Below, in pieces: positions 16,563 through 33,475 of a stretch of DNA of 33,475 bases. The DNA is taken from contig NZ_KQ959948.1 in NCBI RefSeq assembly GCF_001553035.1, forward strand, positions 1 through 33,475, read 5' to 3'. The translations under genes and the position numbers were made by a program. Below the pieces are notes generated by a model. It saw nothing but the letters and a program-made list of their open reading frames with translations. It had not been told where the DNA came from and did not search any database. How positions within the stretch are numbered: position 1 is the stretch's first letter; each line of letters begins with the position of its first letter. Origin of the DNA: Gemella haemolysans (lineage in GTDB: Bacteria; Bacillota; Bacilli; Staphylococcales; Gemellaceae).

Positions 16563-17268
16563 TGGGTTAATCTTCAAAGGGAAGTCTACCGCCGATTTTC
16601 CCTTTGAAATTTTTGTAATAGAAAATGATGGAATTAATAAAGGGAAAAGAAAAGATAAAATATTTACATCTGATGATATGTCAGGAGGAATTGTAAGAAC
16701 TTCTACAGCTTATGAGCTTGTAGAAAAATCATATAAGCTATTAATCCACGATGTAAAATTAAATCAAATCAATGAATTATTAGTGTGGTTAGAAGGTAGT
16801 GGTAAATTAATAGCCTCTGATAATCCTGGTAGATATTATGAGGTATTAACTGTATCTGCAGTTAGAGCTAGACTAGGTGAAGTAGATGAATATGAAATAG
16901 ATGTAGTATTCACTTGTAATCCATTCTCATATAGCATTGCATCTGATATTAAGACATACACAAGCAATGGAGTTATCAACAATGAAACTAATGTAATAAT
17001 GTATCCTAAAATCACTCTATATGGAAATTCAACGAGTGGCACATCATTAACCATAAGTAATCAGGTAGTTAGATTAAAACAACTATCTGAAAAGCTAGTT
17101 ATTGAATGCAAGCAAGGTGAACAAAATGTATATGATAAGAACGGAAATCTATTAAATAGTGTAATGCTGGGAGCGTTCTTTGAGATTAAACCAGGAGTGA
17201 GTGGGATTGTTCTAGGAAATGGAATTACTAAGTTAGAAATAGAGTGTAGATGGGGGGCGTTTATTTAA
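16546..17268 (+). CDS. Distal tail protein (Dit)
   Basis: 240 residues. The N-terminal part (LHYNGLIFKGKSTADFPFEIFVIENDGINKG) and the DDMSGGIVRTSTAYELVEKSY segment match Firmicute Dit proteins (phage tail family, SPP1 gp19.1-like), which form the hub between tail tube and tail tip. The C-terminal half is a beta-rich galectin-like domain. I choose ATG 16546 because GGAGGTGG at 16533-16540 is its ribosome-binding site. The TTG at 16531 lies just before that site. It overlaps the tape measure end by 17 bases. Confidence 0.88.
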   Translation: MSLHYNGLIFKGKSTADFPFEIFVIENDGINKGKRKDKIFTSDDMSGGIVRTSTAYELVEKSYKLLIHDVKLNQINELLVWLEGSGKLIASDNPGRYYEVLTVSAVRARLGEVDEYEIDVVFTCNPFSYSIASDIKTYTSNGVINNETNVIMYPKITLYGNSTSGTSLTISNQVVRLKQLSEKLVIECKQGEQNVYDKNGNLLNSVMLGAFFEIKPGVSGIVLGNGITKLEIECRWGAFI

Positions 17269-29381: not shown

Positions 29382-29880
29382 TCCAGTATATAACATTAAA
29401 AGAGTGCCTGTAGAAAAAATTCAAGCAAATAGCTATAACCCTAACCATGTAGCACCGCCAGAAATGAAACTACTTTATAAATCAATTCTAGAGGACGGTT
29501 ACACAATGCCTATAGTGTGTTACTACTTAGAAGATATAGATAAGTTTGAAATAGTTGATGGCTTTCATAGATATACTGTGATTAAGAAGCATAAAGATAT
29601 ATTTGAGCGTGAGGGCGGCTGTTTGCCAGTATCTGTTATTAATAAACCTATAAGTGATAGAATGGCTTCAACTATCAGACACAATAGGGCAAGAGGCTCT
29701 CACGATGTCGAACTTATGACTAATATTGTAACTGAATTAGTAGAAAGTGGTTGTTCTGATAGATGGATAATGAAGAATATTGGAATGGATGCAGATGAAT
29801 TATTAAGATTAAAACAATTAAGTGGGTTAGCAGCGATATTTAAAGATAAAGAATTTTCAAAAGCATGGGTTGTTGAATAA
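29365..29880 (+). CDS. IbrB-like ParB-domain protein
   Basis: 171 residues with a ParB/Srx-like N-terminal domain: VPVEKIQANSYNPNHV, GYTMPIVCYY, the EIVDGFHRY motif (62-70) and RHNRARGSH (105-113). This is followed by a helical end resembling the DNA-binding part of ParB (CSDRWIMKNIGMDADELLRL). In ParB-fold proteins the GxxR and (D/E)GxHR motifs bind CTP or ATP. It overlaps the IbrA-like gene by 17 bases, and the two form the standard IbrA/IbrB pair. It is the last gene of the operon. Confidence 0.82.
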   Translation: MSQFCSPVYNIKRVPVEKIQANSYNPNHVAPPEMKLLYKSILEDGYTMPIVCYYLEDIDKFEIVDGFHRYTVIKKHKDIFEREGGCLPVSVINKPISDRMASTIRHNRARGSHDVELMTNIVTELVESGCSDRWIMKNIGMDADELLRLKQLSGLAAIFKDKEFSKAWVVE

Positions 29881-29923: not shown

Positions 29924-30103
29924 ATGAATAAAATATCTGAAGCTAAACTAAGAAGCAATAAAAAATGGGATGATAATAATCGTGAACGTAAAAGATATAT
30001 CAATAAGAGATCCACGGCAAGAAGTTTTATTAAAACAATGGAACGAGAAGACATCCCAGAATTTGAAGCATTATTAGAAGAACGTAAAGCTAGAAAAGAT
30101 TAA
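29924..30103 (+). CDS. Small basic phage protein (59 aa) next to the anti-repeat RNA
   Basis: A highly charged helical protein: SEAKLRSNKKWDDNNRER then YINKRSTARSFIKTM and EDIPEFEALLEERKARK. Proteins of this pattern occur near the ends of streptococcal-type phage genomes, with unknown function; the basic first half may bind nucleic acid. TAGGAGAAGG at 29912-29921 is the ribosome-binding site, and TATAAT at 29893-29898 could be its promoter. Its stop lies 8 bases before the extended -10 of the anti-repeat RNA gene. It could be expressed in lysogeny. Confidence 0.65.
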   Translation: MNKISEAKLRSNKKWDDNNRERKRYINKRSTARSFIKTMEREDIPEFEALLEERKARKD

Positions 30104-30110
30104 TATTAAA

Positions 30111-30119
30111 TGTTATAAT
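30111..30119 (+). promoter_or_regulatory. Extended -10 promoter of the anti-repeat RNA
   Basis: TGTTATAAT fits the extended -10 consensus TGnTATAAT exactly. No good -35 hexamer is seen 16-18 bases upstream, which an extended -10 does not need. The predicted transcription start is near 30,126, a few bases before the anti-repeat. Confidence 0.7.
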
Positions 30120-30125
30120 AAATTT

Positions 30126-30183
30126 GTTAGTAGAATTCAAAATTTACATAGGAGGGGCAGCATTAAAGCTGCCTCTTTTTTTT
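30126..30183 (+). ncRNA. Phage anti-repeat RNA (tracrRNA-like decoy, putative)
   Basis: A predicted transcript of about 58 nt. Bases 30130-30150 are the exact reverse complement of 33455-33475 in the first CRISPR repeat (21 nt, and the window ends there, so the match could be longer). The core is GTAGAATTCAAAATTTACAT. The host tracrRNA has the same segment at 33319-33337 with one A missing. Right after the anti-repeat the phage RNA has a terminator hairpin. It lacks the lower-stem anti-repeat (TCAAAT), nexus and UUCG hairpins needed for Cas9 binding. Predicted effect: pairs with pre-crRNA or crRNA repeats and competes with tracrRNA. Not experimentally known to me. Confidence 0.75.
30153..30183 (+). 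terminator. Terminator of the anti-repeat RNA
   Basis: A nine-pair stem, AGGGGCAGC (30153-30161) with GCTGCCTCT (30168-30176), has an ATTAAA loop and one G-T pair. It is followed by T up to 30183. The T run is on the + strand only, so the RNA is made from left to right. Confidence 0.9.
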
Positions 30184-30324
30184 AGGGGCATGGGGGTACA
30201 AATTAGGGGCAAATTTCCTCGTAAAAGCATTTTTTTACGGGAAAATACGAGAGTGGAAAGTCAGTAATACAAGGAGTTTTGAGCATATTCGAGGATATAT
30301 GATATATATGAATATGTCAATGCG
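30184..30324. other. Prophage right end / attR region
   Basis: About 140 bases between the RNA terminator and recognisable cas9. They hold a direct repeat TAGGGGCA (30183-30190 and 30204-30211), an interrupted inverted repeat CTCGTA...TACGAG (about 30218-30252), and CATATTC (30284-30290) opposite GAATATG (30310-30316), spaced by 19 bases. These could be recombinase arm or core sites. The crossover must be at or near 30,316-30,340, where sequence changes from phage to cas9. A 25-codon frame at 30190-30267 is probably not a gene. Confidence 0.6.
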
Positions 30325-31452
30325 AAAGATGCTTATCTAAATATAGTGGTAGGAAATGTCTATGATACTAAGTTTACGCGTAACGTATTTAATTTTATTA
30401 AAGATAAAAAAGATGGAAGAAAATATTCACTTAATAAGGTATTCTATGAAAATGTTAGTGATTCAAAAACAGTAGCTTGGGAAATGGATAAAACAATTTA
30501 TCAAGTGGAAAAAGTCATGAATAATAACAATATCCTAGTAACAAGAAGAACATCTGAACAAAAAGGTGGGTTATTCGATGCTACAGTCTATAAAGCTAAA
30601 GTTGCAGCGAAAGCTAAAGATGGTGTATATTATCCATTAAAAACTTCTAATTCTGTAGTGAAAGATGTTGCTAAGTATGGTGGATTCACAAAAATTAAAA
30701 TAGCGTATTATTCTATTTTTGAATATGTACTTGTTAACAAAAAAGGTGAAGAGAAAATAACAAGAATTATTCCAATTCCAATTTATATCTCGCAAAATAT
30801 TAAGGATGATAATACACTATTAGAATTCGGTAAAACTCAAATTAATTTGAAATCTGGTGAAGAAATTAAAGACCTTAAGTTGAAATATAGAAAATTATGT
30901 ATAGGTGATAAAATTTGTTTAGAAGGATATCCATATTTTGTTGGAGGTAAAACAAGTGATTACTTTGTATATGATAGTGCAGTACAAGTATTAATAGATA
31001 AAGAAAATGAAAAATATATTAAGGAAATTGTGAAGTTTACAAATTGGAAAAAAGATAATAAAGATGGAGAATTATCGAAGAACATTACTCGCAAGAAAAA
31101 TACGGATTTATACAATACATTATTGCAAAAAATGAAAACACCAGAATTAATCAATAAAAAACCAAATAAATATCAAGAATTTGAAAAAGAGAAAACAATA
31201 CATAAATTTAATGACTTAAACGAGGAGGAACAGAGCAAAGTTCTTTTAGAAATGTTAAATCTTTTAACAGATATGAAGACGGTTTATGATTTAAAACTAA
31301 TAAATATAACAGCAACTAGAGGAAAACAAAATTTTGATTTAACAAGTTTAAAAGAATTTACAATTGTAGAACAATCTGTTACAGGATTCTATGAAAAAGA
31401 AATAACAATAATAGGGGATAAAGGGAATGACATGGAGAACAATAATAGTTAG
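30325..31452 (+). pseudogene. cas9: cas9, 3' fragment (RuvC-III end plus PAM-interacting domain), split by the prophage
   Basis: The frame reads KDAYLNIVVGNVYDTKFTRN at its start, the RuvC-III motif of type II-A Cas9 (HHAHDAYLNAVVG in Streptococcus pyogenes). It then runs through the C-terminal domain (YSIFEYVLVNKKGEEKITR, YRKLCIGDKICLEGYPYF) to the closing SVTGFYEKEITI. About 375 codons match residues about 985 to the end of S. pyogenes Cas9. Upstream, where HHA is expected, it reads VNA, and a TGA occurs at 30280. RuvC-I/II, the bridge helix, REC and HNH are all absent. GTG 30346 has no ribosome-binding site, so the fragment is probably not translated. It overlaps cas1 by 26 bases. Confidence 0.93.
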
Positions 31453-32302
31453 AGATAGGGCGAAGCTAGACTATAGCTTGAATTTCCTAACTGTAAGAAA
31501 AGAAGCGGAGACTAAAAAAGTTAGTCTTAACGAAATATACATGATCATTATTGAAAGCACAGCGGTAACTATTACCGCCGTGCTTTTAAATGAACTCATG
31601 AAAAATAAAATTAAGGTAATATTTTGTGATGAAAAAAGAAATCCTAGTTCGGAATTAATACCATACTATGGAAGTCATGATACAAGTCTAAAGTATAAGA
31701 ATCAGCTAGAATGGTCTACCGAGAGTAAAGAAAGAATTTGGACAAGGATAGTATATGAGAAAATTAATAATCAAATGCTGCTGTTAAAGAAATTAGGTAA
31801 AGAAGAGTATAAGTTATTAGAACAATATCTTACAGAACTAGAGTGGAATGACAGCAGTAACAGAGAAGGACATGCAGCCAAGGTTTACTTCAATGCCATG
31901 TTTGGTATGGGTTTTAGTAGAAATAAAGAATGCTTTACGAATGCTGCATTAGATTATGGTTATTCAATTATATTATCTGCCTTTAATAGAGAAATTGTAT
32001 CGTGTGGATATTTTACGCAGTTAGGCTTATGTCACAGAAATCCATATAATAAATTTAATCTAGCCAGTGATTTTATGGAACCTTTCAGAATATTAGTAGA
32101 TGAAATAGTATTTGGTTTAGATGCTGATGAATTTACTAAAGATCATAAAAACTTATTAGTTAATATTCTAAATAACACCATTGAAATTGATGACAAAGAA
32201 CAAACTGTAGCTAATGCGATTAAAATATATGTTCGTAGTTTGTTTACCTCATTAAAAGAAAATGATTTAGAATATATAAAGATGTATAAGTATGAGTTAT
32301 AG
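31427..32302 (+). CDS. cas1: Cas1 integrase, type II
   Basis: 291 residues with the type II start MTWRTIIV. Metal ligands are E147 (REGHAAKVYFNAMFG), H203 (GLCHRNPYN) and D215/E218 (ASDFMEPFR). Cas1 and Cas2 integrate new spacers at the leader end; type II-A also needs Cas9 and Csn2 for this. The start overlaps the cas9 end, AAGGGA at 31421-31426 abuts the ATG, and GGGGATAAAGGG lies just upstream. In the lysogen it is separated from the cas9 promoter, so expression needs an internal promoter or phage transcription. Confidence 0.95.
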   Translation: MTWRTIIVRDRAKLDYSLNFLTVRKEAETKKVSLNEIYMIIIESTAVTITAVLLNELMKNKIKVIFCDEKRNPSSELIPYYGSHDTSLKYKNQLEWSTESKERIWTRIVYEKINNQMLLLKKLGKEEYKLLEQYLTELEWNDSSNREGHAAKVYFNAMFGMGFSRNKECFTNAALDYGYSIILSAFNREIVSCGYFTQLGLCHRNPYNKFNLASDFMEPFRILVDEIVFGLDADEFTKDHKNLLVNILNNTIEIDDKEQTVANAIKIYVRSLFTSLKENDLEYIKMYKYEL

Positions 32303-32612
32303 ATTTATGAGAGTATTAGTAATGTTCGATCTTCCTACAGAAACATCTCTTCAAAGAAAAAATTATAGAAAATTTAGAAAAACATTAATAAAAAATGGAT
32401 TTATAATGATGCAAGAATCAGTTTATGTTAAATTAGCGATGAATCAAGGTAGTGCGGATTTGATTGTGAAGAGTATTCGAAAAATGTGTCCGGATGAGGG
32501 GATAGTTCAAGTATTACAGATTACTGAGAAACAGTTCTCCAAGATGGAGTTTTTAGTAGGAGAGAGTCAGACTGAATATGTGGATAATAATGAAAGGTTA
32601 TTAGAACTATGA
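32292..32612 (+). CDS. cas2: Cas2
   Basis: 106 residues of the ferredoxin-like fold: RVLVMFDLPTETSLQRKNYRKFRK (quoted in part: VLVMFDLP, D13) and then FIMMQESVYVKL. It forms the scaffold dimer of the Cas1-Cas2 integrase. The ATG overlaps the end of cas1, and its stop overlaps the csn2 start (ATGA). Confidence 0.95.
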   Translation: MSYRFMRVLVMFDLPTETSLQRKNYRKFRKTLIKNGFIMMQESVYVKLAMNQGSADLIVKSIRKMCPDEGIVQVLQITEKQFSKMEFLVGESQTEYVDNNERLLEL

Positions 32613-33283
32613 TGATTATTAACAAAAACTGGCAGAGAAAAATAGAAATAGAAGATAATATTATATATACATTAGTTTTTGAAAATAAAAAATATTATCG
32701 AGAAAATATAATTGAATTAATCAATCAACATAAAGGTAACGAAGGGAGTTACATTTTGTCAAATGATAATAAGGAAATATCATTTGACAAAAATAGTTAT
32801 ATTATTACAGATATATTTAATATAGACGTTAATAGTAAAAGAGTACTAACCAAAATATATAACTCATTACTTAAAGAAATAGTAGAAGATATTTCGAGTT
32901 ATAATGAATTATCAACAAATATTAGAGTATATTTTGAAAAATTAATATTTAATAGTTCTTTAGAAATTGATCAAAGTGAAGAGATAGATATGTCGTCGTT
33001 ATTAAAATTAGGAGATTTTAGAGTTCATGTTGAAAATGATGATATTTTAGAAAAATTTTTAAAATTTTTAAAAGTATTAACAGAACTATGTGGTTGTAAA
33101 ATTATTTTTGTAGTAGGACTTCATAACGTTTTCACTCAAGATGAAATAATAGAAATTTATAAAGAAGTATGTTTGAATAAAATAAATATCATAAATATAG
33201 AGTATCAACAATTTAATAATTTATCTACAAAAAATTATAGAGAAATAGTTTATATATTTGATAAAGATAATTGCGAAATATAG
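32609..33283 (+). CDS. csn2: Csn2
   Basis: 224 residues, the length of the short Csn2 subfamily of type II-A systems. Csn2 forms a tetrameric ring that slides on double-stranded DNA ends and is needed for spacer capture. The protein lacks strong motifs, but position (last gene after cas2), length and pattern (KIIFVVGLHNVFTQDEI near the C-terminus) agree. It defines the locus as II-A. No truncation is seen. Confidence 0.9.
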   Translation: MMIINKNWQRKIEIEDNIIYTLVFENKKYYRENIIELINQHKGNEGSYILSNDNKEISFDKNSYIITDIFNIDVNSKRVLTKIYNSLLKEIVEDISSYNELSTNIRVYFEKLIFNSSLEIDQSEEIDMSSLLKLGDFRVHVENDDILEKFLKFLKVLTELCGCKIIFVVGLHNVFTQDEIIEIYKEVCLNKINIINIEYQQFNNLSTKNYREIVYIFDKDNCEI

Positions 33284-33318: not shown

Positions 33319-33402
33319 GTAGATTCAAAATTTACATTCAAGTTCAAATAAAGATTTTATCTAAATTGCCTTCGGGCTGGATCGGTGTCGGTCCATTTTT
33401 TT
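33319..33402 (+). ncRNA. tracrRNA
   Basis: The anti-repeat GTAGATTCAAAATTTACAT (33319-33337) pairs with the repeat, with one base missing relative to a perfect complement. After a bulge, TCAAAT (33344-33349) pairs with the repeat start GTTTGA. The nexus stem AGAT/ATCT (33352-33362), a GCC-TTCG-GGC hairpin (33368-33377) and a seven-pair terminator TGGATCG/CGGTCCA (33378-33395) with T7 follow. This is the complete plan of a II-A tracrRNA: it pairs with pre-crRNA, allows RNase III cutting and binds Cas9. It lies on the + strand between csn2 and the array. Confidence 0.92.
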
Positions 33403-33444: not shown

Positions 33445-33475
33445 GTTTGAGAGATATGTAAATTTTGAATTCTAC
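33445..33475 (+). CRISPR. First repeat of the CRISPR array, cut by window edge
   Basis: 31 bases starting GTTTGAGAGATATGTAAATT, of the II-A repeat type (GTTTTAGAG...), expected total about 36. The identity rests on its position after ATTTGAG, the upstream tracrRNA with a matching anti-repeat, and the cas genes. The second repeat and spacers are outside the window. The array runs to the right. Confidence 0.88.

Follow-up and report, generated by a model that had tools for sequence, protein, structure and literature searches.

The window, that is the whole stretch of 33,475 nucleotides (nt) of Gemella haemolysans DNA analysed here (contig NZ_KQ959948.1, named C35 in a genome of 1.89 Mb in 82 contigs), carries part of a prophage, followed near its right end by the 3' part of an interrupted cas9 gene, cas1, cas2, csn2, and the beginning of a type II-A array of clustered regularly interspaced short palindromic repeats (CRISPR). 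Between the last phage gene and cas9, a putative gene for a 58-nt RNA was detected, whose 5' part is complementary to the CRISPR repeat. The elements of this gene and the two CRISPR features with which it has to be compared, the repeat and the trans-activating CRISPR RNA (tracrRNA), are the following:

30091..30119, + strand: putative sigma-A promoter, TAGAAA, 17 nt, TATAAT, with TG before the -10 region (extended -10); start near 30126
30126..30183, + strand: predicted 58-nt RNA with a 5' anti-repeat and a 3' terminator hairpin
30130..30150, + strand: anti-repeat, GTAGAATTCAAAATTTACATA, exact complement of repeat nt 11-31
30150..30183, + strand: putative intrinsic terminator from fold prediction, 12-bp stem AGGAGGGGCAGC/GCTGCCTCTTTT followed by a T-run
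33319..33401, + strand: host tracrRNA with anti-repeat GTAGATTCAAAATTTACAT, which has a 1-nt deletion relative to the perfect complement
33445..33475, + strand: first CRISPR repeat, 31 of its 36 nt inside the window; the array goes on in C35 and C80

A preliminary description of this DNA had claimed that positions 30130-30150 are exactly complementary to 33455-33475 within the first repeat, and that a match of this kind is expected by chance far less than once per window. Both statements were confirmed. All 21 nt pair (100%), and these two sites are the only matches in the window if up to three mismatches are allowed. The repeat recurs along the remainder of C35 and at the end of C80, and since its full 36-nt sequence, GTTTGAGAGATATGTAAATTTTGAATTCTACAAAAC, could be read beyond the window, the element can be assigned to repeat nt 11-31. 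No comparable match with up to three mismatches was obtained in 100 shuffles. From base composition, the repeat and this part of the prophage would be expected to share about 7e-6 21-mers. Order-2 Markov copies of the prophage, 300 in number, matched the repeat exactly over at most 17 nt, a length reached once, and with the element set aside, the real prophage part and the repeat have no more than 11 consecutive nt in common. A coincidence might be thought of because the sequence is AT-rich (31% GC), but the composition estimate, the shuffled sequences, and the Markov copies already rule it out as the source of the complementarity.

The promoter-like sequence matches the consensus in ten of 12 positions and has the extended TG. 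Such sites are equally common in shuffled sequence (42 found versus 36.7 +/- 6.1), and therefore the promoter by itself is weak evidence. The striking part is the order of promoter, anti-repeat, and terminator. Transcription would start near 30126, four bases upstream of the anti-repeat, and the 12-bp hairpin (30150-30179) with its T-run abuts the anti-repeat without any gap. For the whole 58-nt RNA, a minimum free energy of -20.2 kcal/mol was calculated. A consensus terminator scan did not return this hairpin; we think that it was missed since the stem takes up part of the T-run. With an extended -10 promoter in front and a hairpin with U-run behind, the natural reading is a 58-nt RNA with a 5' anti-repeat, and the orientation of the signals yields the anti-repeat strand, not the repeat strand. 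Judged from these signals, the RNA is predicted to be transcribed.

After the upper-stem anti-repeat, nothing but the terminator follows. The lower stem, the nexus, and the 3' hairpins of tracrRNA were not encountered, so that the proposed anatomy, comprising promoter, anti-repeat, and terminator beside the cas9 insertion, lacking Cas9-binding parts, and with tracrRNA similarity not extending past the upper stem, was found as described. The same applies to the single-nucleotide deletion in the host tracrRNA, which reads GTAGATTC where a perfect anti-repeat would read GTAGAATTC. The deletion is common to a sister species (genome G003). Because the phage copy is free of the deletion and matches the repeat rather than the host tracrRNA, it seems to stem from a repeat, or to have been maintained by selection for pairing, and not to descend from tracrRNA, as far as one copy permits such a statement. 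In another genome (G001, L122 7170-7320), the start of the tracrRNA seems to be duplicated around a masked stretch.

The surroundings of the element are defined by the integration of the prophage into cas9:

29924..30103, + strand: last phage gene, 59 aa, phrog_2277 (unknown function); the promoter -35 region falls within it
30182..30212, + strand: TTAGGGGCA repeats at 30182 and 30203 beside the phage attachment site attP, probable integrase arm sites
30310..31452, + strand: 3' part of cas9 (domain interacting with the protospacer adjacent motif, PAM); the N-terminal part is on contig C31
30319..30325, + strand: attR core ATGCGAA, prophage/cas9 junction in the RuvC-III codons (HHAKDAYLN)
31427..32302, + strand: cas1
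32292..32612, + strand: cas2
32609..33283, + strand: csn2

The profile TIGR01865 detects cas9 in two pieces, positions 1-732 on C31 and 727-1069 in the window. On C31 the cas9 frame reads NDFHHAK, beyond which phage sequence encoding a tyrosine integrase follows, while the window picks up at AKDAYLN. The insertion site corresponds to 30310-30330 of the window and to L009 4580-4600; ATGCGAA is common to both flanks, and the TTAGGGGCA repeats have mirror-image counterparts at L009 4652 and 4663 on the left flank. As the prophage integrates into RuvC-III codons, lysogeny inactivates Cas9. The reading frame of each cas9 half is open. With cas1, cas2, csn2, tracrRNA, and array also in place, the CRISPR locus would probably be intact again after excision. 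Counted from attR, the element is about 140 bases into the prophage. Once the phage is a free circle, the element would point toward the integrase gene's end, with the TTAGGGGCA repeats flanking attP, and thus would have no downstream target to control. The literature, which was covered partially, yielded no description of cas9 serving as a phage attachment site or of a prophage inside cas9, and the integrase search did not identify another phage inserting into cas9. Elsewhere in the window (16681-16823), a weak match to RAGATH-22 was noted (31.5 bits, cut-off 120.3), which is probably due to chance.

Evidence that this phage lineage is attacked by CRISPR systems with this very repeat came from the sister species, which has an identical repeat, a nearly identical tracrRNA, a Cas9 N-part of 96% identity, and an uninterrupted cas9. 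Seven of the 27 spacers in its array (L120) match the prophage with 0 to 4 mismatches, one of them over 30 of 30 nt in a ParB-like gene (29670-29699); the best match of shuffled spacers had seven mismatches. The 3' flanks of the seven targets (TGAACAGC, AACCCCAA, TAGACCGC, TGAACCAT, TAAACCAT, TAAACCTG, and GAAGCCAT) agree around NNAACC, indicating a PAM near this sequence. Arrays with exactly this repeat have therefore taken up spacers from the phage lineage more than once. By its location in a prophage and by these spacers, the element belongs to a mobile element facing its cognate system. In the own array, which is partly masked, none of 22 unmasked spacers was within five mismatches of the phage. 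The C-terminal part of Cas9 (window 30346-31452) is just 74% identical to that of the sister species, in contrast to the 96% of the N-part, and from this comparison the PAM-interacting end seems to have been exchanged.

The best reading of these data, to which we assign a probability of about one half, is an RNA acting against CRISPR by pairing with the precursor of the CRISPR RNA (pre-crRNA), thereby blocking tracrRNA pairing and Cas9 loading. The single-stranded 5' part of the phage RNA would pair with the upper-stem part of the host repeat. Occupied in this way, the repeats of the pre-crRNA would keep tracrRNA off, and crRNAs would neither be matured on nor loaded into Cas9; the 21-bp duplex may in addition be cut by RNase III. 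The phage RNA would be a dead-end partner because the sequences that Cas9 needs, those of the lower stem, nexus, and 3' hairpins, are missing from it. Its action would be of importance upon infection of Cas9-positive cells and at induction, when excision would rebuild cas9. Pairing in cells and loss of interference are what the sequence would predict.

The statement that the phage copy pairs better than the host tracrRNA was only partly sustained by interaction predictions. With the full repeat, about -23.5 kcal/mol was obtained for the phage RNA and -21.7 for tracrRNA, and in a spacer-repeat-spacer context -22.8 and -17.3 kcal/mol, respectively. For the processed repeat (nt 1-22), the order is reversed, with -7.5 kcal/mol for the phage RNA versus -10.5 for tracrRNA. 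Accordingly, the phage RNA would compete best before processing. The suggested role as a crRNA decoy is backed by the anatomy and by spacer targeting through the identical repeat, but not by a pairing advantage on the processed repeat. Several further observations weigh against it. Unlike the phage RNA, tracrRNA has a toehold at repeat nt 1-7, and by entering there it could, in such a model, displace the phage RNA. Preformed Cas9-crRNA-tracrRNA complexes would stay unaffected, as the phage RNA cannot dissolve loaded complexes. Displacement from the toehold and this inability lower our confidence. Moreover, Cas9 is already broken by the insertion in this lysogen. The main weakness is the single copy: a scan tolerating up to three mismatches detected no second one in eight other genomes of the genus, IMG/VR yielded 0 exact matches to the element, and it was not found in GenBank phages; phage sampling of the genus is thin. 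Taken together, the interpretation is plausible and strengthened by the spacers, with the function of the RNA regarded as putative.

The closest phage, IMGVR_UViG_2808606616_000001, is 96% identical at the DNA level over 3.7 kb, and its record goes no further than the 59-aa gene, breaking off at the stop codon immediately ahead of the element. In genome G007, a relative of this last phage gene is located beside a tRNA gene and is not accompanied by such an element. Two matches from the genus scan were rejected, one in a genome without Cas9 (G004) inside a glycosyltransferase-like gene, the other in G007, where a single decayed repeat stands next to cas9. For two further repeats of the genus, the anti-repeats gave eight matches in IMG/VR, apparently in coding sequence, and upper anti-repeats of the streptococcal and Listeria type gave 16; none of either set has a terminator behind it. 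Other repeat-like elements were noted in further phages. Streptococcus phage 128 harbors a mini CRISPR array with S. thermophilus CRISPR1-type repeats between terS and terL (L194 540-910), with promoter-like and terminator-like flanks, and 18 more Streptococcus phage records match its repeat. A solitary CRISPR3-like repeat lies between repressor and early genes of Streptococcus phage Javan263 (L193 1501-1536) and is a candidate for a Racr, the repeat-copying phage RNAs discussed below. The satellite phage Javan624 contains an array of about six degenerate II-A-like repeats (L195 1150-1560). The two elements whose flanks were read for transcription signals look repeat-sense.

Apart from a decoy, the element could be a passive relic, a functionless piece of a CRISPR repeat that the phage picked up, inverted, next to attP. 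The single copy, the lack of a detected conserved relative, and the retention of just 21 of 36 nt would fit this explanation, which we consider unlikely; the fragment is free of errors, however, reaches no further than the upper stem, and has an extended -10 promoter on one side and a terminator on the other. A function as an RNase III lure or in antisense control, with pairing to the pre-crRNA mainly ending in cleavage and loss of crRNA instead of blocked loading, is judged improbable. A perfect duplex of 21 bp is a plausible substrate of RNase III, and here it adjoins the terminator stem, but RNase III guided by tracrRNA cuts within this duplex as well, and productively, so that cleavage alone need not do harm.

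Two other possibilities concern the transcript itself. The element could be read from the minus strand as a repeat mimic of the Racr type, for which a promoter-like site at 30320-30292 (ten of 12 matches) points toward the repeat-sense strand. Close behind it, from 30130 to 30059, that strand has no terminator-like site, which makes a repeat-sense reading less likely, and only repeat nt 11-31 would be produced, without nt 1-10 of the lower stem; such a mimic is very improbable. To a similarly small degree we expect that the anti-repeat is the 3' untranslated region of the last late operon, with the hairpin as operon terminator and the promoter arising by chance. The 59-aa gene ends 22 nt upstream of the expected start, and promoter-like sites are overall no commoner than by chance, but the exact match of 21 nt would be left unexplained and the 3' end of an operon could still act as the same RNA.

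If the decoy interpretation is true, a stand-alone anti-repeat without Cas9-binding parts would constitute a new form of RNA anti-CRISPR and a further RNA route against CRISPR-Cas9, hitting the crRNA rather than Cas proteins. Its design of promoter, 21 nt, and terminator would be minimal for a natural system and could be searched for systematically in any tracrRNA-dependent system; searches for solitary repeats that ignore strand and terminator context could have overlooked this class. Combined with cas9 as attachment site, the anti-repeat RNA would form a testable two-step counter-defence. Tentatively, and with somewhat less confidence than in the decoy as such, it may be the first natural stand-alone anti-repeat RNA trapping crRNAs without a Cas9 partner, the RNA covering infection and induction and the integration into cas9 covering lysogeny. 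No report of a stand-alone anti-repeat RNA was found within the partial literature coverage.

Among known systems, Racrs are small phage RNAs that bind Cas proteins and copy the repeat in solitary units (PMC10651486). Like them, the RNA described here is small, phage-encoded, and of CRISPR origin, and would presumably disturb assembly of the host effector. Racrs copy the crRNA side, whereas the signals at this locus favour the complementary strand, whose product would bind crRNA. With type II-A tracrRNA it shares the 5' anti-repeat and the 3' terminator and differs by the missing lower-stem pairing, nexus, and tail sequence. Binding of crRNA to Cas9-tracrRNA is dominated by crRNA-tracrRNA pairing (PMC6555185), and this pairing is also blocked by the anti-CRISPR oligonucleotides of that study, which are synthetic and modified, mimic the repeat, and bind tracrRNA. 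A precedent for a phage RNA with a perfect anti-repeat being interpreted as a crRNA trap is the phage tracrRNA that occurs together with a RuvC-dead phage Cas9 (PMC10910872). Common to both cases are host spacers matching the phage system and a perfect anti-repeat to the host repeat, 21 of 21 nt here. In that case phage Cas9 and tracrRNA act against a type II-C host, while neither a phage Cas9 nor a tracrRNA body is present here, the genome search having returned just the two host cas9 halves. Since it departs from each of them in one of these features, the RNA is set apart from both Racrs and the phage tracrRNA with dead Cas9; it joins the crRNA-trap idea of the latter (PMC10910872) to the small size of the former, without Cas9.
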